This document shows positions 26,862-40,179 of a stretch of DNA of 64,000 nucleotides, piece after piece (within the stretch, counting starts at the first letter, position 1; the number at the start of each line of letters is the position of its first letter). Position numbers and translations under genes: made by a program. Origin of the DNA: an uncultured Chlorobiaceae bacterium. GTDB lineage: Bacteria; Bacteroidota; Chlorobiia; Chlorobiales; Chlorobiaceae. Below the pieces are notes generated by a model. That model searched no databases. It saw only the letters and a program-made list of their open reading frames with translations, and was not told the origin of the DNA. The DNA lies in assembly GCA_903843305.1 (NCBI GenBank), contig CAIMPI010000033.1:1-64000 (forward strand), written 5' to 3'.

Positions 26862-27284
26862 TTACGACGCATCGATCTGACGAAGAATTTCGAGCAGTGA
26901 ACCAGACGTTGACAGCTTCTCCTCGTCGGTGGCGGAATTGTAAAATGCGATAATTGCCTTGCCGCCGATACCAATCGGGGGATACTTCTTTTCGGCAAGC
27001 ATTGGCATCAGAGCAAGGAATTTGGACACACCCTCTCTGTCCATACCGTTGATTCTACTGACGACATCTTCGGCGATACCGGCAGAGGCAGCCTCGTCCA
27101 GACCTGCAACGTAAGCGGCGCTCTGCACGGCACCGTACTGAAAACCAAGCACAGCAAAAACGATATCCCTGTTCGTGCTGCTTTCGAGTCCAGCCGGGCA
27201 TTGCCCGATCGCTTCAGCAAGGAACTGCAGTGACATTTTCGTTACTGCCTCGATGTTTTCTTCAGAATTGTTATGCATAACCAT
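26862..27284 (-). CDS. Small soluble protein of unknown function
   Basis: A 140-residue, Ala-rich, mainly helical protein that I do not recognise. No signal peptide, no Cys pair and no metal motif stand out. It lies 33 bases downstream of rubrerythrin on the same strand and could be cotranscribed with it. The frame is uninterrupted and the composition protein-like, which supports it being a real gene. Confidence 0.55.
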   Translation of the reverse strand: MVMHNNSEENIEAVTKMSLQFLAEAIGQCPAGLESSTNRDIVFAVLGFQYGAVQSAAYVAGLDEAASAGIAEDVVSRINGMDREGVSKFLALMPMLAEKKYPPIGIGGKAIIAFYNSATDEEKLSTSGSLLEILRQIDAS

Positions 27285-27317
27285 TAATTCTGTACCATGA
27301 AATGACCGGGGTTCTGT

Positions 27318-27818
27318 TTAGCCGATTTCAATGAACTTGCTTCCTGGAACATTGCAGATGGGACAGGTGTCCGGTATAGTGTTCTCGACGGTGTTACCGC
27401 AGACTGGACAGATGTATATCTTCCCTGCGGGCAGGTCTCTGCCGCCTTGTACGGCTTCAAGTGCTTTTGCGTAGAGCCCGTGATGGATCTCTTCTACAGC
27501 CAACGCATTCTTGATGGAAAACTCGGCCGGTTTGTTGCCTTCCTGCTGTGCTTCAACAAGATAGTTGGGATACATCTCGGTAAATTCAAATTCTTCGCCC
27601 TTGATGGCTTCCTGAAGGTTTTCAGCGGTGCTTTTTATTCCCCCCATCACACGAAGGTGCGCAAGGGCGTGGACGGTTTCCGCTTCAGATGCGGCGCGAA
27701 AGAGCTTTGCTACCTGGAGCATTCCTTCTTCTTCCGCTTTTTTCGCAAACGCAAGATATTTCCGGTTTGCCTGACTTTCTCCTGCGAAAGCGTTTTGCAG
27801 ATTTTCCATTGTTGACAT
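27318..27818 (-). CDS. Rubrerythrin
   Basis: A 166-residue non-haem di-iron peroxidase that removes hydrogen peroxide in anaerobes. The ferritin-like domain shows GESQANRKYLAFA, EAETVHALAHLRV and AVEEIHHGLYAKAL, giving the di-iron ligands. The C-terminal rubredoxin domain has CPVCGNTV and CPICNVPG for one Fe(Cys)4 site. AAGGAG sits about 10 bases before the ATG at 27818. The double rubredoxin fusion immediately upstream suggests an electron donor chain. Confidence 0.95.
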   Translation of the reverse strand: MSTMENLQNAFAGESQANRKYLAFAKKAEEEGMLQVAKLFRAASEAETVHALAHLRVMGGIKSTAENLQEAIKGEEFEFTEMYPNYLVEAQQEGNKPAEFSIKNALAVEEIHHGLYAKALEAVQGGRDLPAGKIYICPVCGNTVENTIPDTCPICNVPGSKFIEIG

Positions 27819-27846
27819 GGTGTTTTTCTCCTTGGGGTTTTATGCC

Positions 27847-27868
27847 TCTCCCTGTTCTTGTCGGGAGA
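27847..27868. other. Small hairpin between the rubredoxin fusion and rubrerythrin
   Basis: TCTCCC and GGGAGA enclose a 10-base loop, directly after the fusion gene on the minus strand. No T-run follows, so it is more likely an RNA-stability or attenuation element than a terminator. It could set the ratio of the two proteins. Confidence 0.3.
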
Positions 27869-27878
27869 TTACGGTTGA

Positions 27879-29468
27879 TTAGACGTGCTCAATAGAGGTA
27901 TGATTGGAAATTTCGGAATTGGTGGTACATAAATCAGCCGTCGAGAGATGGTGAACATTATCATTGCCGGTCAGGCGTGCAAAGTCCCGGAGCTCTTCGG
28001 TGACGGCTTTGAAAAAGTTTGCGACGCGGACGGCGGATTTATCGACATCCAGACGGGAACGAAGGGCCGGATCCTGCGTGGCGATGCCGACGGGACATTT
28101 GCCGGTATTGCAGATACGGTACTGCTGACAACCTGCAGCCATCATGGCCGCAGTCCCGACGGCTATGGCATCGGCCCCCATTGCCAGCGCCTTGGCGAAG
28201 TCTGAAGAGATGCGCAGGCCACCGGTAATAATCAGGGAAACGGTATCGGCCCCTCTCGAATCAAGTATTTTTCTTGCTCTTGCCAGAGCGAAAATGGTTG
28301 GCACTGACGTAGCGTTTTTGACAACTTTGGGAGAAGCGCCAGTTCCACCTGCCCGGCCGTCAATAGTGATGAAATCCACACCCGCATAGAGAGCTATATC
28401 GATATCTTCTTCGATATGGCCAGCCGCAAGCTTGATGCCAATTGGTTTCCCCCCAGTTCTCAGTCGCAAATGAGTGACCGTGGCTTTCAGATCCTCTTTT
28501 GAGCGGATGTCGGGGAAGTGCGAAGGGCTGATGATATCTTGTCCCTCCCGACATCCCCGGATTGCAGCGATTTCACGGGTTACCTTGCTCCCCGGAAGAT
28601 GCCCTCCCATTCCGGGTTTTGCGGACTGTCCGATTTTGATTTCCACGGCATCGACCAGCTTCAGGTTCTCGTCGGTTACACTGTATTTGTTGGGAACATA
28701 TTCGAAAATGTAACGGTACGAGGCCGCAAGTGATTCAGGCAGAATACCCCCTTCACCCGAGCACATGGCTGTTTTTGCCTGCGCGCTGCCTTTGGCAAGA
28801 GCGAGCTTTGCTTCTCTCGACAACGCGCCGAAGGAGATATGGGAGACAAAAACCGGAGTTTCGAGCATGAGTGGGAAGGCTGCAGCAGGACCAATCAGCG
28901 TTTGTGTGGCAACCGACTGTGTTTTGTTGAGCGGCATTTTTGCAAGCTGCGCACCTTTAATGAGGATTTCATCCCAGGAGAAGGTGGGAATGCGTGTCCG
29001 CATAGGTTCGATAATCGACTTTCCCGTCATGGCAAGGCGGTGGATATCTGCCATGTTGACCTCGAAATCGTCGGCCAGCCGTCGCCATTCCCCTAGGTAT
29101 TCTTCTCCCGAACCTGTTTCAGCGCCTATCGAGAGGGCTGCTGGCCGGTTGGATGCTGCAAGGCTGAAGCTCTTTTTGCCTGAGCCGCAGACAGGACATG
29201 TCCAGTTGTCAGGAAGAGCTGACCACAGGGTGCCTTCTTTTGCTTCATTATAGGCATAGGAGCAGAGAGTGCATTCATAGATGTTTGTGGAAACGGATTC
29301 GCTTTTGACTGCCGGAACCACGGGTTGTTGTTCTTTCAGCGGGATAAATGAGGATTTTGGCGAGCCGCAGACTGGGCATATCCAGTCATTCGGGAGGGCC
29401 TCCCATGCGACGGATTCTTTGTTTTCATCGTAAATATACGAGCATAGCCCACATTGCCATTTTGCCAT
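27879..29468 (-). CDS. Double-rubredoxin / FMN glutamate-synthase-type fusion protein
   Basis: The 529-residue protein has two N-terminal rubredoxin domains (about 3-45, CGLCSY...CPVCG; and about 62-105, CTLCSY...CPVCG), each with four Cys for one Fe. These are joined to a GltB-type FMN/Fe-S synthase domain (about 140-529). That domain shows GEGGILPES, GQSAKPGMGGHLPG, IDGRAGGTGASP, VGTAAMMAAGCQQYRICN and CPVGIATQDP, matching the FMN pocket and 3Fe-4S cysteines of glutamate synthase. The glutamine amidotransferase and FAD subunits are absent. It may use rubredoxin-delivered electrons. It lies upstream of rubrerythrin, separated by 60 bases. The substrate is uncertain, since such stand-alone domains are not always glutamate synthases. 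Confidence 0.88.
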   Translation of the reverse strand: MAKWQCGLCSYIYDENKESVAWEALPNDWICPVCGSPKSSFIPLKEQQPVVPAVKSESVSTNIYECTLCSYAYNEAKEGTLWSALPDNWTCPVCGSGKKSFSLAASNRPAALSIGAETGSGEEYLGEWRRLADDFEVNMADIHRLAMTGKSIIEPMRTRIPTFSWDEILIKGAQLAKMPLNKTQSVATQTLIGPAAAFPLMLETPVFVSHISFGALSREAKLALAKGSAQAKTAMCSGEGGILPESLAASYRYIFEYVPNKYSVTDENLKLVDAVEIKIGQSAKPGMGGHLPGSKVTREIAAIRGCREGQDIISPSHFPDIRSKEDLKATVTHLRLRTGGKPIGIKLAAGHIEEDIDIALYAGVDFITIDGRAGGTGASPKVVKNATSVPTIFALARARKILDSRGADTVSLIITGGLRISSDFAKALAMGADAIAVGTAAMMAAGCQQYRICNTGKCPVGIATQDPALRSRLDVDKSAVRVANFFKAVTEELRDFARLTGNDNVHHLSTADLCTTNSEISNHTSIEHV

Positions 29469-29610
29469 ACAAATCGGTAGATGATATGATTACTGCAAAA
29501 TATGATTGATTATTATAATAGGAATTTTTCCTGATTGAGATCAGGAAAAGAGGCTTCTTTTTTTCATCGACATATCATTGCTATCTGCCCTCGAAAGAGA
29601 AGCTGATACG

Positions 29611-31410
29611 CTAACTGGAAGAATCTACAGCATTTTTGTCTCTCGCCCTCCTCAACACCACACTGAACACTGACCCGTGGTTGACGCGCGAGCGAACCTC
29701 AATGTCGCCTTTGTGCCCCAGAACAATATGCTTGACAATCGAGAGCCCAAGACCTGTTCCGCCGTGCTGGCGTGAGCGAGCCTTGTCCACTCTGTAAAAT
29801 CGCTCAAAGATACGTTCAAGGTCATGCTTTGCTATACCGATTCCGTTATCTTCAACCTCCAGTCGGACGTCATCCCCACTTCTGAACGCTGTAATTCTGA
29901 TTCTGCCATTGCGGTCGTCTACATATTTAATAGCGTTATCGAGGAGGTTTCGGATAACAATGTCGAGATAACGGGCATCGGCATAGACAAGTGGCAGTTC
30001 ATCGGCTATCTTGATATCTAACCGGATCTGTTTTTTCTCAATAGAAGGCTTCAGCAGCTCAACAGATTCCATAAGAACAGTTTTCAGGTCAATAGGTGCG
30101 AATTGGTAATCAATGTACCCTGATTCAATTTTGGAGAGGTCAAGCACGTCATTGACAAGTGCCGTAAGCTGTTCACTTGCCTGCAAGATAATCTTCAGGA
30201 ACGGTGTGGCATGTTTTGGATCATCCATAGCCCCTTCGAGCAGCGTTTCGGTATAGCCGCTGATAACAGTGAGCGGAGTACGGAGTTCGTGTGACACACT
30301 TGAGACAAAATCACGTCGTATTTTTTCGAGGTTGCGGAGCTTTGTGATATCGTTGAGGACAAAAACTGTTCCTTCGAATCTGTTCTCTTTTATGAGTGGC
30401 ATGGAGCTGATCTGCATGATGCGTTCACCTTTTATGGTCATCAGCGACATCTCCTCTTTAAGTAAGGTGATATGGGTAGTGTGTACCTTGGTAAACAGCT
30501 CCTGAAGCTTTTTATCCGAAAGGTGCCTGATTGGACGAGATTTGAACATGGCGCCTTCAATCTGGAACATTCTTGATGCTGCGGGATTGACAAGGATAAT
30601 GTCACCGGAAGCGTCAGTGACAATGATCGCTTCACGGATGCCCGAAAAAACGGCTTGGTACCACTCTTCACTGCGTCGCATTGTTGTTATCTTGTCAGCC
30701 ATGTCAGTGATGGCTCGTGCAAGCGTTCCAATCTCGTCGTGACGGTGGAAGAGGGCTGTGGCGGCTGACAAATCACCCTCTTTTTTGTGTTTTATCGTTT
30801 CGGCAAGCGTGCGTAGTGGGCGAGTAATAATAATGCTTGCAAGAAAACCTGCGGCTATGGCAAATATAAGAACAAGCAAGAGTGCCTCTGCGATCTCTTT
30901 CTGCACTGCACCCTCAAATATTTTAATATCATAGAGTGGTTTACTGAATCGAAGGATCGCGCACGGTTCAGGTACTCCGACAGGTACTGCCATATAAAGT
31001 GAATACTCTTGTACCGTGTGGCTGAAGCGGGTATTTTCACCATACCCCTTTACAAGTGCTTCTTTTACCTCTGCTCTTTGGCGGTGGTTCTCAACAGTGG
31101 TAAGCTTATTCTGCGGAACCGAAGAGTCAGAGAGCACCCTGCCGTCAAGATCAATCAGAGTCACCCGAATGTCAAGTGTTCGTGCGATCTGTTTAATCCA
31201 TGCACTGGTATTTGAAGTTCTTGTCCATCCCTTTGGCTGTTGTTCAAGAATCTGCTTGTTAAGCAGAAGTTCCCGGTGAAGCTCTTTTCTGGTTGCTGTG
31301 GAGACTATTTCTATCAATTGGTTGCTTATTGAGAAATAGCTGATGAGCATGGCAAAAAAAATAATCAATCCGGTAGCGATACCGAATTTGAACGAGAGTT
31401 TAACCTGCAT
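29611..31410 (-). CDS. PhoR-like sensor histidine kinase, no adjacent response regulator
   Basis: From ATG 31410 the protein has 599 residues. A first membrane helix (about 9-26), an extracytoplasmic sensor domain (30-170), a second helix (175-195), HAMP (197-245) and PAS (250-355) precede the HisKA domain with [10 protein letters not shown] (phospho-accepting His374) and HATPase_c with NLLDNAIKY and [13 protein letters not shown]. The closest general type is PhoR/VicK. Its start overlaps the parA stop by 11 bases; an in-frame TTG at 31431 is a poorer choice. No response regulator gene is adjacent, so its partner is elsewhere. Pst/PhoU genes 4 kb away make phosphate the likely signal, but this is inference. 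Confidence 0.88.
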
Positions 31411-32164
31411 GGTTGTCACCCGGCAATTCAAACTGCGCGTTCACTTCCTCCCAGAGGTTCCGGTAAGCTTTAGACGCAGCAGAGTTTGGCAGAACCGCAT
31501 TGAGTGGAGAACGGTAGATACCCATTTTTTCAACTTCGGAATTGTAAGGAATCGTTTGGGAGAGAAAGCCGTGAGTATTGCTGAATTCATCGAGAATGTC
31601 GCGATGCAGCTTTTTCTGTTTTTCGACCATGGAAAAAAATGGGCGAATTTTCGAGCTATCGAGTTTGTTGGCTTCAAAAAAGTCTTTCAACTGAATGAAC
31701 GTACGAATTGACAAGGTTGTGGGAATCAAAGGCACCAGAATAAGATCGGAGGCGGCAAAGACACTTTCAGAGAGCAGTGTCAGATTTGGTGGGCAGTCAA
31801 GAAAGATAAACCGATAGTCATCGCTTAGTTCCTCAAGGTTTTTCTTGAGTTTTTTTTGAGGCTTTTTCTCTTCAGCCAGTTCGATATCAAGATTACGGTA
31901 CGACAAGTCGGAGGGAAGCAGGTCAAGATTTGCGAAATCTGTTGCTTTGATATTGCGATATATTTTTTTGTTCCCTTTAAGAAATTTATCGCTGTTGTAC
32001 TTCTTTGAAGCGGTAATCCTGAAATAGTAGGAGCTTGCTCCCTGTGGATCAAGATCACAGATTAGTATCGGGGGATAAAACAGAGAAGAAAGGTAGGAGA
32101 GGTTGACTGCCGCAGCCGTTTTTCCAACACCTCCCTTGATACTGTACAGGGCTATTGTTTTCAT
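31400..32164 (-). CDS. ParA/MinD-type ATPase
   Basis: A 254-residue P-loop ATPase. The deviant Walker [14 protein letters not shown] (Lys10, Lys15) and Walker [14 protein letters not shown] match the ParA family, and [29 protein letters not shown] is the usual A-prime/B segment. No N-terminal helix-turn-helix is present, so it is the small chromosome-independent kind used for cargo positioning rather than plasmid-type ParA with HTH. No ParB or parS is nearby. It is 2 bases after the CHAD gene and overlaps the kinase gene, so all three are one operon. The likely cargo may be polyphosphate bound by CHAD. Confidence 0.88.
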
Positions 32165-32166
32165 GG

Positions 32167-33732
32167 TCAGGTGCTCGTTAAAAGGTCGTGAAACAGTTGA
32201 ATGGTTTGTTCATGGTCAAACGATCTGAAGGTTTTGTGGAACTTGAGACGAGCCTCTTCCTTTTTTTGAAAAAGAATAGCCATAAGGCCGCCTGTTGATG
32301 CGGCAAGTAACTTGTCCTGGGGCATCAATGTAAGCTGTTCATGCAAAAAAAGAAGTTGAACGCTAAAATCAACAAAGTCACCAAGATTTTCCTGCAGTTC
32401 CTTCATTTGCCGGATAAAAGGGGTAATAGTTTTATGTGGAAAAATCGAAGCGAAAAACTCAAGCAGATAGCGGAGTTTCTTGCAGTCGATGCGCAATCCA
32501 TGAAGTTCTGCATCAGTTGTTTCTTTGCTGATAAGACGGCCGCGGCGGATTACTTTTTTCCACGCTTTTCTTATAGTTTCTACGGCAATACTCCTGGTGG
32601 AAAGGGAGGCATTTGTTATCTGTTCGGGTTCAGGATGCGACGGGCGGTTGAGATATGCTTCCCACTCTTCAAGAAATGATTTGTATGAATCGGATGAAAG
32701 ATAACGGGAAAATTGTCTGTGCAGCATTTTTCGGGATGAGGCAATGTTATCGAAAAATATCTTCAGTGACGGCTGAAGGGCAGGGGGAAGATAGTGGAAA
32801 TAGGTTGCCTGCTGGAGAAGATAGACATCCCTGTCGCGCAATTCATTGGTTCGTTTGCAGAGATCTCTGAAACAGTTGAGATAATATGAAGTTTCACTGG
32901 GCTCAAAAACACCCTTAAGCTGTTTGAGTATTGAACGGGTCCGACGTATGGCGACCCGATAATCATGCAGAAACTCGGAATCGATATTTTTGGTTATTCC
33001 CTCCTCATTGAGACGCATGACCGAAAAAGTGAATTGCAGCAGACGTCGGGCGCTTTCATGAATGGGAGTATCAGGATCGAGAGTGAGACGGATTTTCGAA
33101 GAGTAGTGCTGAGCAGTATGTCCAGCATTATGCATCATCAGCTCAAAGAGTTGTTTGAAATCAAGAATACTTTCAACATTTTTGTTGTCAGCTAAAGACT
33201 TTCCAACTTGTGCTATTTTATCCTCATATCCTCTGTAAGGAGAAATGGCGAAATAATACGTGAAGGGTTCTTTACCATGACTTCCGTGAAGGAATAATGA
33301 TTCCGATGTCAGGATAGCAATAGTTTTTTCGTTTTCGTCAAGCATCCGGTATGAAGTAATGTGAGCATCAAGGGAGCAAAGCTTCATGAATGCCCTGATA
33401 GTGCTGCATGTGCAAAGTTCTTCTCTCAGTTTGCAGGGTGGAAGAGTGTCTGAGAAAAAAAAGGAGGGGCTCGGCGTGAATGGCAGTGAGGTTATTTCAT
33501 GGCCGGTATTAAGATCTACAAGGGAAATATTTTTCTTATTTTTTACAATGACTATGTCTCTGTCGAAAGCTTGCCATTCAAAAGTATCATAGAAATCACG
33601 TCGTTCTTTCGATAATGCAAGTGCTTTAAGTCGCCATTCTGCAGGCAGATATTGAAGAATGTTTTCGGGCAACGACTCGACTGAAGCGGCATGACTTAGT
33701 TTGAAATATACTGTTTTCGTAGTGGCGCTCAT
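32167..33732 (-). CDS. CHAD-domain protein with an N-terminal regulatory-like domain
   Basis: CHAD (conserved histidine alpha-helical domain) proteins bind polyphosphate through rows of basic residues. The C-terminal two-thirds (about 220-521) is a helical, Arg/Lys/His-rich region with [21 protein letters not shown] and [17 protein letters not shown], which are the CHAD signatures. The N-terminal part (LSLLD-like [18 protein letters not shown], then a CYTH-like stretch around [23 protein letters not shown]) resembles domains often placed before CHAD. It heads an operon with ParA and a PhoR-like kinase. The 2-base gap to parA implies coupled synthesis. Confidence 0.85.
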
Positions 33733-33802: not shown

Positions 33803-34468
33803 TTACCTTGCCGGAGTAAAATATTGCTTAATAAGTTCTGAGGGATGATGAATCAGGGCTTTTGCTCCGCATTCAACAAGTTCGCTTTCGGGTCGGAACC
33901 CCCAGAGAACCCCGAGAGGGAACATTCCCGCTCTTGTTGCGGTCAGCATATCAATGCCGCTGTCTCCGACATAGAGAATGGATGAAGGTTTTTCTCCAAG
34001 CATCCTTGCGACAAGCAAGGCGCCTTCTGGATCTGGTTTATGAGCTATGCCGCTGTGATGGCCCATGACCACGTCAAACTTCCACTCCTTCATCAGGAAT
34101 TCTGCACAGAGGCGGGTGAAGTGATCGGCTTTGTTCGAAAGAATAGCCATTTTTATTCCTTGTTCTGCAATACGGTCAAGCATGGCACTAATGCCAGGGT
34201 ATGGTCGTGAGTTCACATTCCAGTTGTTGGCATAGTGTGCCATAAATTCCGGCAGAAGAAGGTCAATGGTTTCTGGCGTGCCCACTCCTTCTGGAAGTGC
34301 TTTTCTGACTAATTCCCGTATTCCGTGTCCTACAAGAAAACGACACTCATCAATAGAATGCACCGGATAATCGTGCAGGGCAAGCACCGTATTGAGTGTA
34401 TTGACAAGGTCCTGGAGGGTATCAAGCAGGGTTCCGTCCAGGTCGAAAATAACAGCATTGTAGGTCAT
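33803..34468 (-). CDS. gph: HAD-superfamily phosphatase, phosphoglycolate phosphatase type
   Basis: A 221-residue HAD hydrolase. Motif I is DLDGTLLDT near residue 9, motif II is ILSNKADH, motif III covers HKPDPEGALL, and motif IV is YVGDSGIDML. A cap domain sits between motifs I and II. The closest group is phosphoglycolate phosphatase (Gph), though HAD substrate range is broad. It is convergent or downstream of the chlorosome protein gene, from which a hairpin separates it. Confidence 0.75.
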   Translation of the reverse strand: MTYNAVIFDLDGTLLDTLQDLVNTLNTVLALHDYPVHSIDECRFLVGHGIRELVRKALPEGVGTPETIDLLLPEFMAHYANNWNVNSRPYPGISAMLDRIAEQGIKMAILSNKADHFTRLCAEFLMKEWKFDVVMGHHSGIAHKPDPEGALLVARMLGEKPSSILYVGDSGIDMLTATRAGMFPLGVLWGFRPESELVECGAKALIHHPSELIKQYFTPAR

Positions 34469-35046: not shown

Positions 35047-35859
35047 ATGATGAAAAAACTTCTGCTGCTTGTTATTCTTCTTGCTTTTGCCGTCACAGGA
35101 ACTGCAGATGCTGCCGGGAAGACTATTGTGTTGGACGGTTCTACTACTGTTGGTCCTGTTGCGAAATCTTTCGCAACCTATTTCACTAAAAAATATGGTA
35201 TTCGTGTCACAGTGAGCGAGTCGGGCAGTGGTAATGGTGCAAAAAGCCTGATTAACGGTTCATGCACGATTGCTGCAATGTCGCGTGCCATGAAAGATGC
35301 TGAGATTGCGGCAGCCAGGAAAAAAGGCGTAAATCCTGTTGCACATGTTATTGCTTTTGACGGTCTTGCCATGGTTGTCCATCCGGCAAACCCTGTTCGT
35401 GCACTTTCAAAAGCTCAGATCAGCAGTATTTATCGTGGTACCATTACCAACTGGAAAGAGGTTGGAGGCGCCAATGCCCGTATTGTTGTTATTCAGCGTG
35501 AATCCAACAGTGGGACTCAGGATTCCTTCAAAGAACTGGTTACCGGCAAGAGTATGCAGATTACAGGAAATGCTGAAACCCAGTCGAGTAACGGCGCTGT
35601 AAAAACAAGAGTCAGCACAACTCCTTCCGCCATCGGTTTTCTTGGCTTGGGGTTTGTTGATAGTTCCGTAAAGGTTATTGCTGTAAATAGTGTTTTGCCC
35701 AGTGTTAAAACGGTAAAAAATGGCTCCTATACGGTAACGAGACCGCTCTATCTTTATACTAATGGTCAGCCATCAGGGTCGGTCAGACAGTTTATCGATT
35801 TACCGAACACTGTTGAAGGAAAAGCGATGATAAGTGAACTTGGTTTTGTTAACCGTTGA
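35047..35859 (+). CDS. pstS: Phosphate-binding protein PstS
   Basis: The periplasmic phosphate-binding subunit of the high-affinity phosphate importer. A signal peptide (MMKKLLLLVILLAFAVTG) is followed by DGSTTVGPVAKSFA, SGSGNGAKSLINGSC and QRESNSGTQDSF, which make the phosphate-binding loops. The 270-residue length is normal. A hairpin with a T-rich tail follows it, so pstS may be made in excess over pstCAB. The next ATG at 35050 is an equally possible start. Confidence 0.92.
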   Translation: MMKKLLLLVILLAFAVTGTADAAGKTIVLDGSTTVGPVAKSFATYFTKKYGIRVTVSESGSGNGAKSLINGSCTIAAMSRAMKDAEIAAARKKGVNPVAHVIAFDGLAMVVHPANPVRALSKAQISSIYRGTITNWKEVGGANARIVVIQRESNSGTQDSFKELVTGKSMQITGNAETQSSNGAVKTRVSTTPSAIGFLGLGFVDSSVKVIAVNSVLPSVKTVKNGSYTVTRPLYLYTNGQPSGSVRQFIDLPNTVEGKAMISELGFVNR

Positions 35860-35896
35860 GATTGTTTTTTCGCTTTGAGCTATCATTATTCATATA

Positions 35897-35930
35897 AAAC
35901 CGGTTGACCAATTAACCGGTTTTTGTTTTT
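35897..35930 (+). terminator. Terminator or attenuator after pstS
   Basis: AAAACCGGTT pairs with AACCGGTTTT over a short loop, followed by TTTTGTTTTT. It lies between pstS and pstC. It would allow strong pstS expression with less read-through into pstCAB. Confidence 0.7.
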
Positions 35931-36072
35931 ACTATTTATTACAAATGTTTCATACTTGTAACATAACCGGTGTAGGTTTCTATCCTGAAAGCCCATAGAT
36001 TAACGTCATCAAAATTAAGTCACGGGGATGCTGAGGGAAACTGGTAATTGAGAAAAGAAATTATTCAAAACT

Positions 36073-37236
36073 ATGGCTGAAGAGAGTGTAGGGGAGCGTA
36101 ACCGTTCGAATGCCTTTGTGGTAACCGCTCGGAAACGCGCCATGCAGAAGGTTGCAAAAACAGCCGGAGAAGGGGTGCTCTTTTCGGTAGCCTTGTTTGT
36201 GGCTGTTATAGTCCTTTTTATTTTCTACTTCGTGGCACGCGATGCCGTTCCTTTTTTTCAGATCCGCGGATTCAGCGAATTTTTTACCAGTACCAACTGG
36301 TATCCTGCCGATGAGCCGGGCGAGTTTGGTGCTCTGGCCATTATTTACGGCAGCTTGATGGTGACACTCGGTTCTGCAATGATTGCTGTACCCATGGGGG
36401 TTGCCGCCGCAATATGCCTCAGCGATATTCTTCCTTTTTCGATTCGGCAGTACGCCAAGCCCGTCATTGAAATGCTTGCTGCAATTCCTTCGGTAGCATT
36501 CGGCTTTTTTGCCCTCGTTGTTCTGGCTCCACTTATGCAGGATCATGGCGGCCCTATGCTGATGTGGGCCTGGTGGATTCTCGTTTCACCCTTTCTGCTT
36601 CTTGCCGTGATTGTCATTTCCGATCTTTTGACTACCAACATCAAGGATGAGAAGCGTCGTCAGCAACGGCACTGGATGTTGTTGATTGTTCTTGGCCTCT
36701 TCTCGATTTTTCTCTTGTTCAAGGTTGGTTCTGTGCTGAATGGCATCCAGATTCTGACTGGTACCAACGCACTGAATGTTTCTATTATACTGAGCTTTAT
36801 GGCACTGCCGACTATTGTAAGTGTTTCCGAAGATGCTCTGCAGGCTGTAGGGCGAGACATTCGTGAGGGTAGTTATGCACTTGGAGCCACAAGGGCTGAA
36901 ACGATCATTAAAACTATTCTTCCGGCAGCAAGCAGCGGTATTCTTGCGGCGGTCATTCTCGGTATTATGCGTGCTCTCGGTGAAACGATGGTAGTCTGGA
37001 TGGCTTCGGGCAACTCCTCACATATTCCTGAGCCTTGGTTCAACTACCTCGAAGCAATCCGTACACTGACGGCGACCATTGCCGGTGATATGGGCGAAGC
37101 CGACCAGGTGACCGGATCTGCCCGTTTTCATGTCCTGTTTGCCATGGGTCTGCTGCTCCTGATTATCAGTTTTATCAGCAATCTTGTAAGTGAGAGAATT
37201 GTGGTTCGCCAGCGTAAAATTCTGTCCGGTCAGTAA
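36073..37236 (+). CDS. pstC: Phosphate ABC transporter permease PstC
   Basis: A 387-residue membrane permease. About six or more membrane helices and the EAA-like loop ALGATRAETIIKTILPAASSG identify it as PstC. The N-terminal segment is longer than usual. ATG at 36073 starts MAEESVGERN, a soluble extension before the first helix. It is first in pstC-pstA-pstB-phoU. Confidence 0.9.
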   Translation: MAEESVGERNRSNAFVVTARKRAMQKVAKTAGEGVLFSVALFVAVIVLFIFYFVARDAVPFFQIRGFSEFFTSTNWYPADEPGEFGALAIIYGSLMVTLGSAMIAVPMGVAAAICLSDILPFSIRQYAKPVIEMLAAIPSVAFGFFALVVLAPLMQDHGGPMLMWAWWILVSPFLLLAVIVISDLLTTNIKDEKRRQQRHWMLLIVLGLFSIFLLFKVGSVLNGIQILTGTNALNVSIILSFMALPTIVSVSEDALQAVGRDIREGSYALGATRAETIIKTILPAASSGILAAVILGIMRALGETMVVWMASGNSSHIPEPWFNYLEAIRTLTATIAGDMGEADQVTGSARFHVLFAMGLLLLIISFISNLVSERIVVRQRKILSGQ

Positions 37237-37260
37237 TATTTGCCCATCAACCCCTTTGTT

Positions 37261-38607
37261 ATGAATATCGGAACCAGGAAAATACTTGATCGTTCGTTTA
37301 CCGCTGTTGGCATCGGCTCAATCGTTGTCATGGCTTTGGCCCTGATGATTGTTGTTGTGCCGATAGTCTACAATGGAATCGGGGCAGTATTTTTTACCGG
37401 TACGGTTGAACATCGCAAAATGTTGCATGCAGAATTCAAGAGGGGCGACAGTCAAGATCTTTCAAGTGAGGTTGCCTCATCAGATCGATACCGGGCTAAA
37501 GTATACGATATGCTTACTGGTTTTGAGGCAGAACTTGAAGCAATGGCGCCCGAAAAAAAGGCTGAATACCAGTCGAAATATTCCCAGGTACGAACAGCCT
37601 TGCAGGCACTGCTTGGTCCCCTGCCGGGTGATCCTGAACCGATGCTGACAAGGTTCAAATACGGCCAGACCCGATGGGAGAAAGCGGAGGAAAAGTTGCA
37701 TGACCTGCTCTATGAGTCAAAGTGGGATAATTCCAATCCCAATGTAATGAGCAATGAGTACTTTGTAAGCCGTGCCATTGGCTTTGAGGGCACCTCTCTT
37801 GTCAAGCTCTTTCCTTATGTCAAAGACAATCTTGAGAACATGCTCCTTCCCGAGTTTACTGTCTATTGGGGATTTATCACAGACAGCTCTGTTGATTCGC
37901 ACTTTTTCGGCGGAATCTGGCCTGAAATTCAGGGTACCTTTTTTCTTGCCATCGGTGCGATGCTTTTCGCTTTTCCTCTCGGTGTTGTTGCTGCGGTTTA
38001 TTTTACCGAATATGCCAGGCCGGGTTTTTTAAACAGTATGCTGCGCAGTGCCAACAGCACTCTTGCTGGTGTACCGAGTATTGTTTTTGGTATGTTCGGC
38101 CTTGCTTTTTTTATCAATACCATGAAAGTTTCCGAATCAAAAAGTGTGATTGCCGGTGCGCTGACGCTTGCCATTATGATTCTTCCGACCATTATACGTG
38201 CAGCCGAAGAGGCCATTCTTGCGGTACCTAAAACGTACAGAGAGGCATCGCTCAGCCTTGGTTCCACCAAATGGAATACTATAGCGACCGTTATTCTTCC
38301 GGCAGCGCTTCCCGGTATCCTGACAGGCGGAGTTATAAGCCTTGGCAGGGCAGCAGGCGAAACAGCGCCAATTATTTTTACAGCGGCAGTCAGCGTTGGT
38401 TCGGCGATTGGTCTTGCTGATGTTTTTTCGTCTCCGACACCAGCTCTTTCATGGAACATTTATAATCTTGCCAGTGAACATGAAGCGGCAACTCAAATTC
38501 GCCATGTTCAGTATGGCATGGTGCTCGCACTGGTCACTATTGTGCTGTTGCTGAACTTGTCAGCGATTGTTCTGCGGGCTCGTATTTCCAAAAAATTAAA
38601 AGGCTAA
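37261..38607 (+). CDS. pstA: Phosphate ABC transporter permease PstA with a large periplasmic insertion
   Basis: From ATG 37261 the protein has 448 residues, about 150 more than ordinary PstA. The extra part is between the first membrane helix (about residues 18-45) and the second (near 220): a charged, helix-forming region (about 50-205) with no transport motif. The EAA loop (SLGSTKWNTIATVILPAALPG) and the other helices are normal. An in-frame TTG at 37240 would add seven residues. The insertion may contact PstS or another periplasmic partner. Start of pstB follows after 6 bases. Confidence 0.88.
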   Translation: MNIGTRKILDRSFTAVGIGSIVVMALALMIVVVPIVYNGIGAVFFTGTVEHRKMLHAEFKRGDSQDLSSEVASSDRYRAKVYDMLTGFEAELEAMAPEKKAEYQSKYSQVRTALQALLGPLPGDPEPMLTRFKYGQTRWEKAEEKLHDLLYESKWDNSNPNVMSNEYFVSRAIGFEGTSLVKLFPYVKDNLENMLLPEFTVYWGFITDSSVDSHFFGGIWPEIQGTFFLAIGAMLFAFPLGVVAAVYFTEYARPGFLNSMLRSANSTLAGVPSIVFGMFGLAFFINTMKVSESKSVIAGALTLAIMILPTIIRAAEEAILAVPKTYREASLSLGSTKWNTIATVILPAALPGILTGGVISLGRAAGETAPIIFTAAVSVGSAIGLADVFSSPTPALSWNIYNLASEHEAATQIRHVQYGMVLALVTIVLLLNLSAIVLRARISKKLKG

Positions 38608-38613
38608 CAACCA

Positions 38614-39474
38614 ATGCTCATGACAACTGATGTGAGAAAAACTTCAGAAAGTCTGCCTGGACAGAAAGCAACACGGGAGATCTATCTCCCTCCTCAACGA
38701 AGTTCAATAACCGGAGGAGGAACTGCTCATATCGCGGCCAAGGAATTTTCCGTCTATTACGGTGAGTTCGAAGCCGTAAAGAAAGTCAGCGCAGATATTC
38801 TCTCAAAATATGTGACTGCAATTATCGGACCGAGCGGTTGTGGCAAGAGCACTTTTTTACGTGCCATAAATCGGATGAACGATCTTATTCCAAGCTGTCA
38901 TACCACAGGCGCTCTGCTTTTTGACGGTGAGGACGTCTATGGCAAATTCACTGATGAAGTATTGCTGCGCAAGAAAGTCGGCATGGTTTTTCAGAAACCA
39001 AATCCGTTTCCGAAATCAATTTTTGACAATATTGCATACGGGCCCCGTCTGCACGGAGTAAACGACAAGAAAAAACTGATGGAAATTGTTGAGCGCAGTC
39101 TGAGAAAAGCCGCAATATGGGATGAAGTCTGTGACCGTCTCGACAAGAATGCACTCGGTCTTAGTGGTGGTCAGCAGCAGAGGCTTTGCGTAGCCCGTAC
39201 GCTTGCCGTTGAGCCTGAAGTGCTCCTGCTTGACGAACCTACTTCTGCTCTTGATCCCAAAGCCACAGCAAAAATTGAAGATCTTATTCAGGAATTGAGA
39301 GGAAGTTATACCATCATGATTGTTACGCACAACATGCAGCAGGCATCAAGGGTATCAGACTCTACAATGTTTTTCTATGAAGGAATTCTTGTTGAACATG
39401 CGTCGACCGCGCACCTTTTTACCAATCCGAAAGACCCGATGACGGAAGATTATATCACCGGAAGATTCAGCTAA
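38614..39474 (+). CDS. pstB: Phosphate ABC transporter ATP-binding protein PstB
   Basis: The ATPase of the Pst importer. Walker [11 protein letters not shown]-loop [15 protein letters not shown], signature LSGGQQQR and Walker [13 protein letters not shown] are intact, in the order typical of PstB (the KPNPFPKSI segment is diagnostic). The first 45 residues before the domain are an N-terminal extension. Length is 286 residues. It sits between pstA and phoU. Confidence 0.95.
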
Positions 39475-39492
39475 CGAAACCATAGTAATGTT

Positions 39493-40179
39493 ATGTCATC
39501 ACGCCCGGTTCATGAGCTTATAAAAGAACTTTCGCAGGTTCTTGTTCAACTCTCCGAAAAAGTAGTGGAGAATTTGTTTAATGCCCTGCATGTGGTGAAA
39601 CATCAGGATGAACAAGGTGCACGCCAGATCAGGTTTATCGATCATGAAATTGATGTGGCTGAGGTCAATCTTGAAGAGCGTTGTCTGGCATTTCTTGCTC
39701 TTCAGCAGCCAGTAGCAAGAGATCTGCGTACCATCGTCACCATTATCAAGATTAACGATGACCTTGAACGTATCGGTGATCTGGCAGTTCATATTATTGA
39801 CCGTATGTTGGACATCAGTCCCGAACTACTCAAATCGTTTGCCTTTGAGGATATGGGCATGCATGCCGCCGATATGGTTAAAAAGTCGATTGAGGCATTC
39901 ATCTCAAAAGACCGTATGCTTGCAGATCAGGTTTGTGCCCTTGATGAACAGATTGATATGATGCATCGTTCGGCCTTTAAAAAAGTGACACTATTAATGA
40001 AAGACCCGGATTCGGATGTCGATCAGCTCATAGCGGCCTTGAGCATCTCAAGATATATCGAACGAATGGCTGACCATGCGTCAAGAATTGCCCATGAAGT
40101 CATTTATCTCGTGACGGGCGAAATTGTTCGCCATAAGGGAGGATTTTACGAAAAGCTTATAGAGTCGCTTAAAGAGTAG
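39493..40179 (+). CDS. phoU: Phosphate transport regulator PhoU
   Basis: A 228-residue, all-helical protein made of two PhoU three-helix units. The metal-binding E/D-rich repeats LLxD-like EVNLEERCLAFLALQQPVARDLRTI and ISRYIERMADHASRIAHEV are the family signatures. PhoU links PstB to the PhoR kinase and represses the Pho response when phosphate is plentiful. It lies 18 bases after pstB, in the same operon. Confidence 0.95.
   Translation: MSSRPVHELIKELSQVLVQLSEKVVENLFNALHVVKHQDEQGARQIRFIDHEIDVAEVNLEERCLAFLALQQPVARDLRTIVTIIKINDDLERIGDLAVHIIDRMLDISPELLKSFAFEDMGMHAADMVKKSIEAFISKDRMLADQVCALDEQIDMMHRSAFKKVTLLMKDPDSDVDQLIAALSISRYIERMADHASRIAHEVIYLVTGEIVRHKGGFYEKLIESLKE

Follow-up and report, generated by a model that had tools for sequence, protein, structure and literature searches.

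A conserved CHAD-ParA gene pair as a candidate polyphosphate-granule positioning module in Chlorobiaceae and other phyla

ATPases of the ParA/MinD family act on the cargos they position by way of linking adaptors, which are often encoded alongside them, and the known partners of ParA usually bear a charged, disordered N-terminus (PMC10241942). Polyphosphate (polyP) granules are widespread and are spaced or inherited in an orderly way in some bacteria, and no energy-driven machine that positions them is known. A 2025 review gives only AlgP for these granules, names no ATPase and says of a need for energy that it 'remains to be seen' (PMC13052382); in the literature searched, the whole words 'ParA' and 'polyP granule' occur together only in that review. 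For CtCHAD of Chlorobaculum tepidum, a structure has been solved with bound polyP (PDB 6qva), and mutation of H253, R256, R260 and R296 weakened polyP binding (PMC6537752); in Acidithiobacillus a folD-ppk-parA-CHAD context, found while copper resistance was being tested, was published in 2024 as highly conserved (PMC10892726). In this study, we analyse a CHAD gene and the gene for a small ParA-type ATPase that follows it in a stretch of 64,000 nucleotides (contig CAIMPI010000033.1, positions 1 to 64,000; hereafter the window) from the 2.59 Mb genome of an uncultured Chlorobiaceae bacterium (assembly GCA_903843305.1; G000 in our numbering of genomes, with loci numbered L). We consider it rather probable that the two genes make up a ParA-type positioning or partition module, with polyP, most likely as granules, for its cargo and the CHAD protein for its adaptor, and very likely that the pair is involved with polyP.

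The CHAD-ParA pair and its conservation

An original prediction, made from the letters of the window, had read three genes in a row at this locus, CHAD, ParA and a PhoR-like kinase, with a 2-base gap between the first two and an 11-base overlap between the last two, and all of this was confirmed. The features are as follows.

32167-33732, minus strand: CHAD protein of 521 amino acids (PF05235, E=1.6e-51), proposed polyphosphate (granule) adaptor
33118-33732, minus strand: N-terminal ~205 residues of the CHAD protein, a degenerate TTM/CYTH-like domain without ExExK
32167-33117, minus strand: CHAD domain with the polyP-contact residues H256, R259, R263 and R299
31400-32164, minus strand: small ParA-type ATPase of 254 amino acids (PF13614), without an N-terminal helix-turn-helix
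32117-32137, minus strand: ParA residues 10-16, the deviant Walker A motif (KGGVGKT), whose signature lysine is K10
29611-31410 from ATG, or to 31431 from TTG, minus strand: PhoR-type histidine kinase (Pfam HAMP, PAS, HisKA, HATPase)

The gap between CHAD and ParA reads TGA-CC-ATG, and the overlap of the kinase ATG with the ParA stop is ATGCAGGTTAA.

The suggestion that CHAD and ParA might be found side by side in other genomes was borne out both near and far. In a set of 37 close relatives, consisting of the window genome and 36 relatives of its genus, CHAD and this ParA are each found in 36, with every CHAD bearer carrying ParA, and the sole genome without CHAD (G004, 85% complete) is also without ParA. 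In almost every genome of this set the two genes are immediate neighbours, and in Chlorobiaceae the pair has been kept across at least three unrelated chromosomal sites. The older site has BMP-family (PnrA-like) and CBS/DUF294 genes (F12, F15, F25) and lies near PPK1, while the others are PhoU-LRR (leucine-rich repeat), PPK1-LRR-PhoA and, in the window's clade, Pst-HAD; a tree of the CHAD proteins agrees with these site groups.

With the ParA alignment alone as query against about 85,000 species genomes, we recovered at least 543 relatives and kept the best 80 loci, of which 79 could be assessed; L156, whose ParA frame is disturbed, was read separately for this count. In 72 of the 79, the gene immediately upstream on the ParA strand is CHAD; in one of the other seven it lies 503 bases from ParA, and the last six loci lack it. 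Commonly the two genes share a 4-base ATGA stop/start overlap. Sixteen of the kept loci are from outside Chlorobiaceae (KSB1, Dadabacteria, Desulfobacterota, Deferribacteres, Gemmatimonadota, Verrucomicrobiota and a Methanophagales archaeon), and CHAD is upstream in all 16 and directly so in 15. Such recurrence of CHAD-ParA adjacency is far beyond chance. The neighbours also recur and are usually genes of polyP metabolism or phosphate handling, with PPK1, SixA, Ppx/GppA and a small CYTH protein in the outside loci, PPK1, PhoU and Pst in Chlorobiaceae, and the gene order CHAD-ParA-CYTH-NUDIX on Paracoccus plasmids. Long frames around ParA in five genomes (G065, G197, G281, G369, G376), considered as natural CHAD-ParA fusions, resolve into separate genes.

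The window CHAD protein matches PF05235 with 176 bits against a curated cut-off of 25.6 and is 52% identical to CtCHAD (PDB 6qv7/6qva) over 313 columns. Its H256, R259, R263 and R299 correspond to the four CtCHAD residues named above, and these contact residues are invariant in 53 of 53 CHAD proteins (37 from Chlorobiaceae and 16 from elsewhere). The polyP binding on which the original prediction drew is shown for the orthologue. In one genome (G137) the CHAD protein is a 100% match to PDB 3e0s, the C. tepidum CHAD, and stands in the order HAD-PPK1-LRR-CHAD-ParA with a CHAD-ParA gap of 2 bases, as in the window. The structures of CHAD and ParA were each predicted singly. For the N-terminal part of CHAD, the AlphaFold model (pLDDT 88) is matched in Foldseek by ygiF (5a60), by thiamine triphosphatases and by TTM enzymes; this TTM/CYTH-like domain is probably non-catalytic because it lacks the ExExK motif.

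The ATPase itself appears intact. In all 22 aligned ParA sequences, taken from several phyla, KGGVGKT, DLDxQG and the Walker B residue D123 are invariant, and the invariant residues include K10, K15, T16, D37, D39 and D123. The ParA model (pLDDT 83) finds a Soj-NrdR model and Soj 1wcv as its best structure matches, with a TM of ~0.8, and the fold of McdA is also among the matches; by sequence, ParA reaches no NCBIfam cut-off, the best score being 66 against 180. Some basic residues in the C-terminal region (K184, K/R213) are conserved, in an alignment that left the Soj DNA-contact positions unplaced. In the ParA tree the loci of this ParA form one clade, weakly resolved inside and distant from the genome's own Soj, a separate Soj-type gene of the window genome (G000:C16). 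As originally read, the protein has no helix-turn-helix, and no ParB-like gene was recognised beside CHAD-ParA in the mapped loci, parS sites not being part of that search. From this record of sequence and gene order we strongly infer a functional link between ParA and CHAD.

Positioning and the competing explanations

Since CHAD is both a polyP binder and the most constant neighbour of ParA, we favour a model in which it serves as adaptor for the partition or spacing of polyP granules. CHAD would coat or tether to polyP, for which binding is known in the orthologue, and ParA, with its intact deviant-Walker site, would dimerise with ATP and in that form bind the nucleoid; granule-bound CHAD would then contact ParA and stimulate its release, so that the granules would be distributed over the length of the nucleoid and each daughter cell would receive a share. 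The contact between the two proteins, the nucleoid binding and the granule movement are modelled on McdA/McdB, which act in this manner on carboxysomes. The original prediction had proposed that the ATPase segregates granules with CHAD as adaptor, and what stands of it is a conserved, polyP-linked pair of which this is the best explanation, while the positioning itself is something that we infer. On balance we also favour the broader proposition, that a dedicated ParA ATPase positions and partitions polyP granules via CHAD in several bacterial phyla and one archaeon and that the granules would thus be a new class of ParA cargo.

Several observations weigh against this model. Six Chlorobiaceae loci carry ParA without an adjoining CHAD; in three of those genomes (G005, G016, G033), however, CHAD is present elsewhere, as part of a PhoU-LRR-CHAD-PPK1 operon, and ParA stands alone at the older site, and two order-level relatives (G038, G041) have CHAD without this ParA. 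In a sample of 394 genomes from the phylum, this ParA is found in 79 Chlorobiaceae and eight others, of which one has SixA-CHAD-ParA and six, all of one family (called Chitinophagaceae-like here, the name being a guess) and with ~45% identity, lack a CHAD neighbour; three of those six are without any detectable CHAD. Besides the Chitinophagaceae-like ones, sampling at lower identity also turned up some plasmid ParAs without CHAD. Finally, unlike the usual partner of ParA, CHAD does not begin with a basic or a long, disordered segment: the net charge of its first 30 residues is ~0 in Chlorobiaceae and, in other groups, mostly below zero. Because the Chitinophagaceae-like branch has no CHAD neighbour, the association is not universal in distant branches of ParA; in the closer subfamily it is near-obligate.

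Some features of these and other genomes deserve mention in their own right. An esterase-like gene adjoins ParA in several of the Chitinophagaceae-like loci (L196-L201, in G062, G127, G159, G181, G311 and G384). On the Marinobacter plasmid pMAQU02 (L220), a ParA relative with 38% identity lies at most 4 kb from phbB, a gene of polyhydroxybutyrate (PHB) biosynthesis, and may hint at a ParA tied to another storage polymer. The second type of operon, PhoU-LRR-CHAD-PPK1 without ParA, was seen at L049, L050, L051, L053, L057 and L019, and two genomes (G008, G030) carry both it and a CHAD-ParA pair, which suggests two specialised copies of CHAD.

The main rival to positioning is regulation of polyP synthesis or granule assembly, a possibility that we take seriously while holding it to be rather unlikely. 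The ATPase would here assemble, regulate or recruit a PPK1/CHAD complex, so that ParA sets granule number, size or chain turnover rather than position, much as BcsQ, a MinD/ParA relative, acts in the regulation or assembly of cellulose synthase. The genomic linkage to enzymes (PPK1, Ppx, SixA, CYTH) is as strong as that to the binder, ParA has a weak Pfam match to CBP_BcsQ (E=1.4e-6), and the want of an activating basic tail at the N-terminus of CHAD is in keeping with a metabolic role. The immediate partner of ParA, however, is a non-enzymatic polyP-binding protein and not PPK1, and where CHAD has joined PPK1 without ParA, ParA remains at the older site; by both sequence and structure searches, moreover, it is closest to Soj/ParA.

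Active positioning may also be set against a passive arrangement, in which CHAD and ParA hold the granule on the nucleoid for storage or stress protection, or in which polyP regulates chromosome organisation by ParA, with no active transport in either case. Other bacteria do place polyP or PHB granules by way of the nucleoid-binding proteins AlgP, PhaM, PhaF and PhaH, with no known ATPase (PMC13052382), but the ATPase motifs of this ParA are all strictly invariant, which argues for turnover, and we regard the passive arrangement as improbable.

A third alternative takes CHAD, ParA and the kinase as one unit for sensing and positioning, in which the kinase reads the state of phosphate or of the granule. 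The tight gene order, the 11-base overlap and the nearby pst-phoU genes speak for such a trio, and the original prediction had the kinase tying the system to phosphate state. The comparison among relatives upholds the adjacency of CHAD and ParA but not that of the kinase, whose position next to ParA is peculiar to the window's clade; close relatives (G014, G018, G028) keep CHAD-ParA with no kinase beside it. In six of the genomes checked (G003, G012, G014, G021, G024, G028) the kinase orthologue instead overlaps or abuts PhoB. In the window genome and three others (G006, G023, G029) PhoB is on a different contig from the kinase, and in the window genome the stranded PhoB has PPK1, PhoU and an LRR gene close by (L074). 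With orthologues paired with PhoB elsewhere and PhoB here on another contig, the kinase is, as judged from gene order, the PhoR of PhoB-PhoR, an ordinary phosphate sensor that would stand outside the CHAD-ParA mechanism and that a rearrangement in the window's clade appears to have left beside ParA. The observation, also made originally, that no response-regulator gene adjoins the kinase at the window locus is explained by the same stranding of PhoB. The trio is thus largely refuted and, as a single unit, very improbable. Least credible of all is that this ParA belongs to plasmid or chromosome partition, as a stray gene that has nothing to do with CHAD. Although annotation pipelines label such genes ParA family protein and the fold is that of Soj, the pair is adjacent in several phyla, no ParB-like neighbour was recognised in the mapped loci and the genome has a separate Soj-type gene, and a plasmid-partition remnant is ruled out by the conserved adjacency to CHAD.

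Surrounding genes

The positioning model aside, the remaining features of the locus are given below, the first two being additions to the original prediction.

33803-34468, minus strand: HAD-family phosphatase (PF13419), 70 bases upstream of CHAD
29526-29549, minus strand: terminator-like hairpin 3' of the kinase (consensus match only)
35047-40179, plus strand: Pst phosphate transporter genes and phoU, divergent, context only

The HAD phosphatase is a conserved neighbour in the Chlorobaculum order given above for G137, and the hairpin after the kinase is the probable end of the operon. That Pst and PhoU genes lie nearby was also read correctly from the start, with PstS, PstC and PhoU found at 35-40 kb on the other strand; these three were called by Pfam, whereas PstA and PstB are named from their position and from homologous loci. 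Beyond the hairpin, on the same strand as the kinase, positions 26862-29468 of the window hold genes for a protein that combines a glutamate-synthase domain with a rubredoxin domain, for a rubrerythrin and for a protein of 140 amino acids with no Pfam match.

Two further genes recur beside polyP genes in Chlorobiaceae. The first encodes an LRR-like protein of ~350-390 amino acids, cytosolic-looking, with many repeats of ~20 residues and regularly placed cysteines (DCSGNQLTSL), and it adjoins PPK1, PhoU and CHAD in many Chlorobiaceae, among them C. tepidum and the window genome (G000:C35). This protein could serve as a scaffold for granules, or it, and not CHAD, could be the real ParA adaptor.

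L035:6964-8127, L053:978-2084, L074:8074-9126 and others: LRR-like genes

The second encodes a pyruvoyl-dependent arginine decarboxylase and lies beside PPK1-PhoU at L035:2833-3378 and at five other Chlorobiaceae loci, perhaps reflecting a polyamine link to polyP.

Comparison with known systems

The original prediction knew of no described system with this gene order, which was nearly right, the exception being the ppk-parA-CHAD cluster of Acidithiobacillus. There too the genes for ParA and CHAD are conserved beside ppk, a likeness of gene content, but the cluster includes folD and was reported as synteny only, with no role proposed for ParA beyond plasmid partition (PMC10892726). CtCHAD is an orthologue of the window CHAD whose gene stands 2 bases before the same ParA, yet in the accessible part of its report it is treated solely as a polyP-binding module, without mention of the ParA partner (PMC6537752). 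AlgP of Pseudomonas aeruginosa resembles the proposed system in that it is needed for the even spacing of polyP granules on the nucleoid (PMC9239181, PMC13052382), but it is a histone H1-like DNA-binding protein, is no ATPase and is unrelated to CHAD or ParA. As both the ATPase and the proposed adaptor can be named, the latter with a structure solved in complex with polyP, and as both occur in an organism in culture, the question of energy-driven granule positioning becomes directly testable. McdA/McdB is the closest in kind, having a ParA-type ATPase and a cargo-bound adaptor encoded together, an organelle-like cargo and, in McdA, a fold matched by the ParA described here; it differs in that the adaptor here would be CHAD, unrelated to McdB and with no activating N-terminal peptide seen, that the cargo would be polyP, and that positioning is in our case a proposal. 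What is new here is therefore a candidate cargo, polyP, for a known type of ATPase system, and if the proposal is true, a polymer that is neither DNA nor protein joins the cargos of the ParA family.

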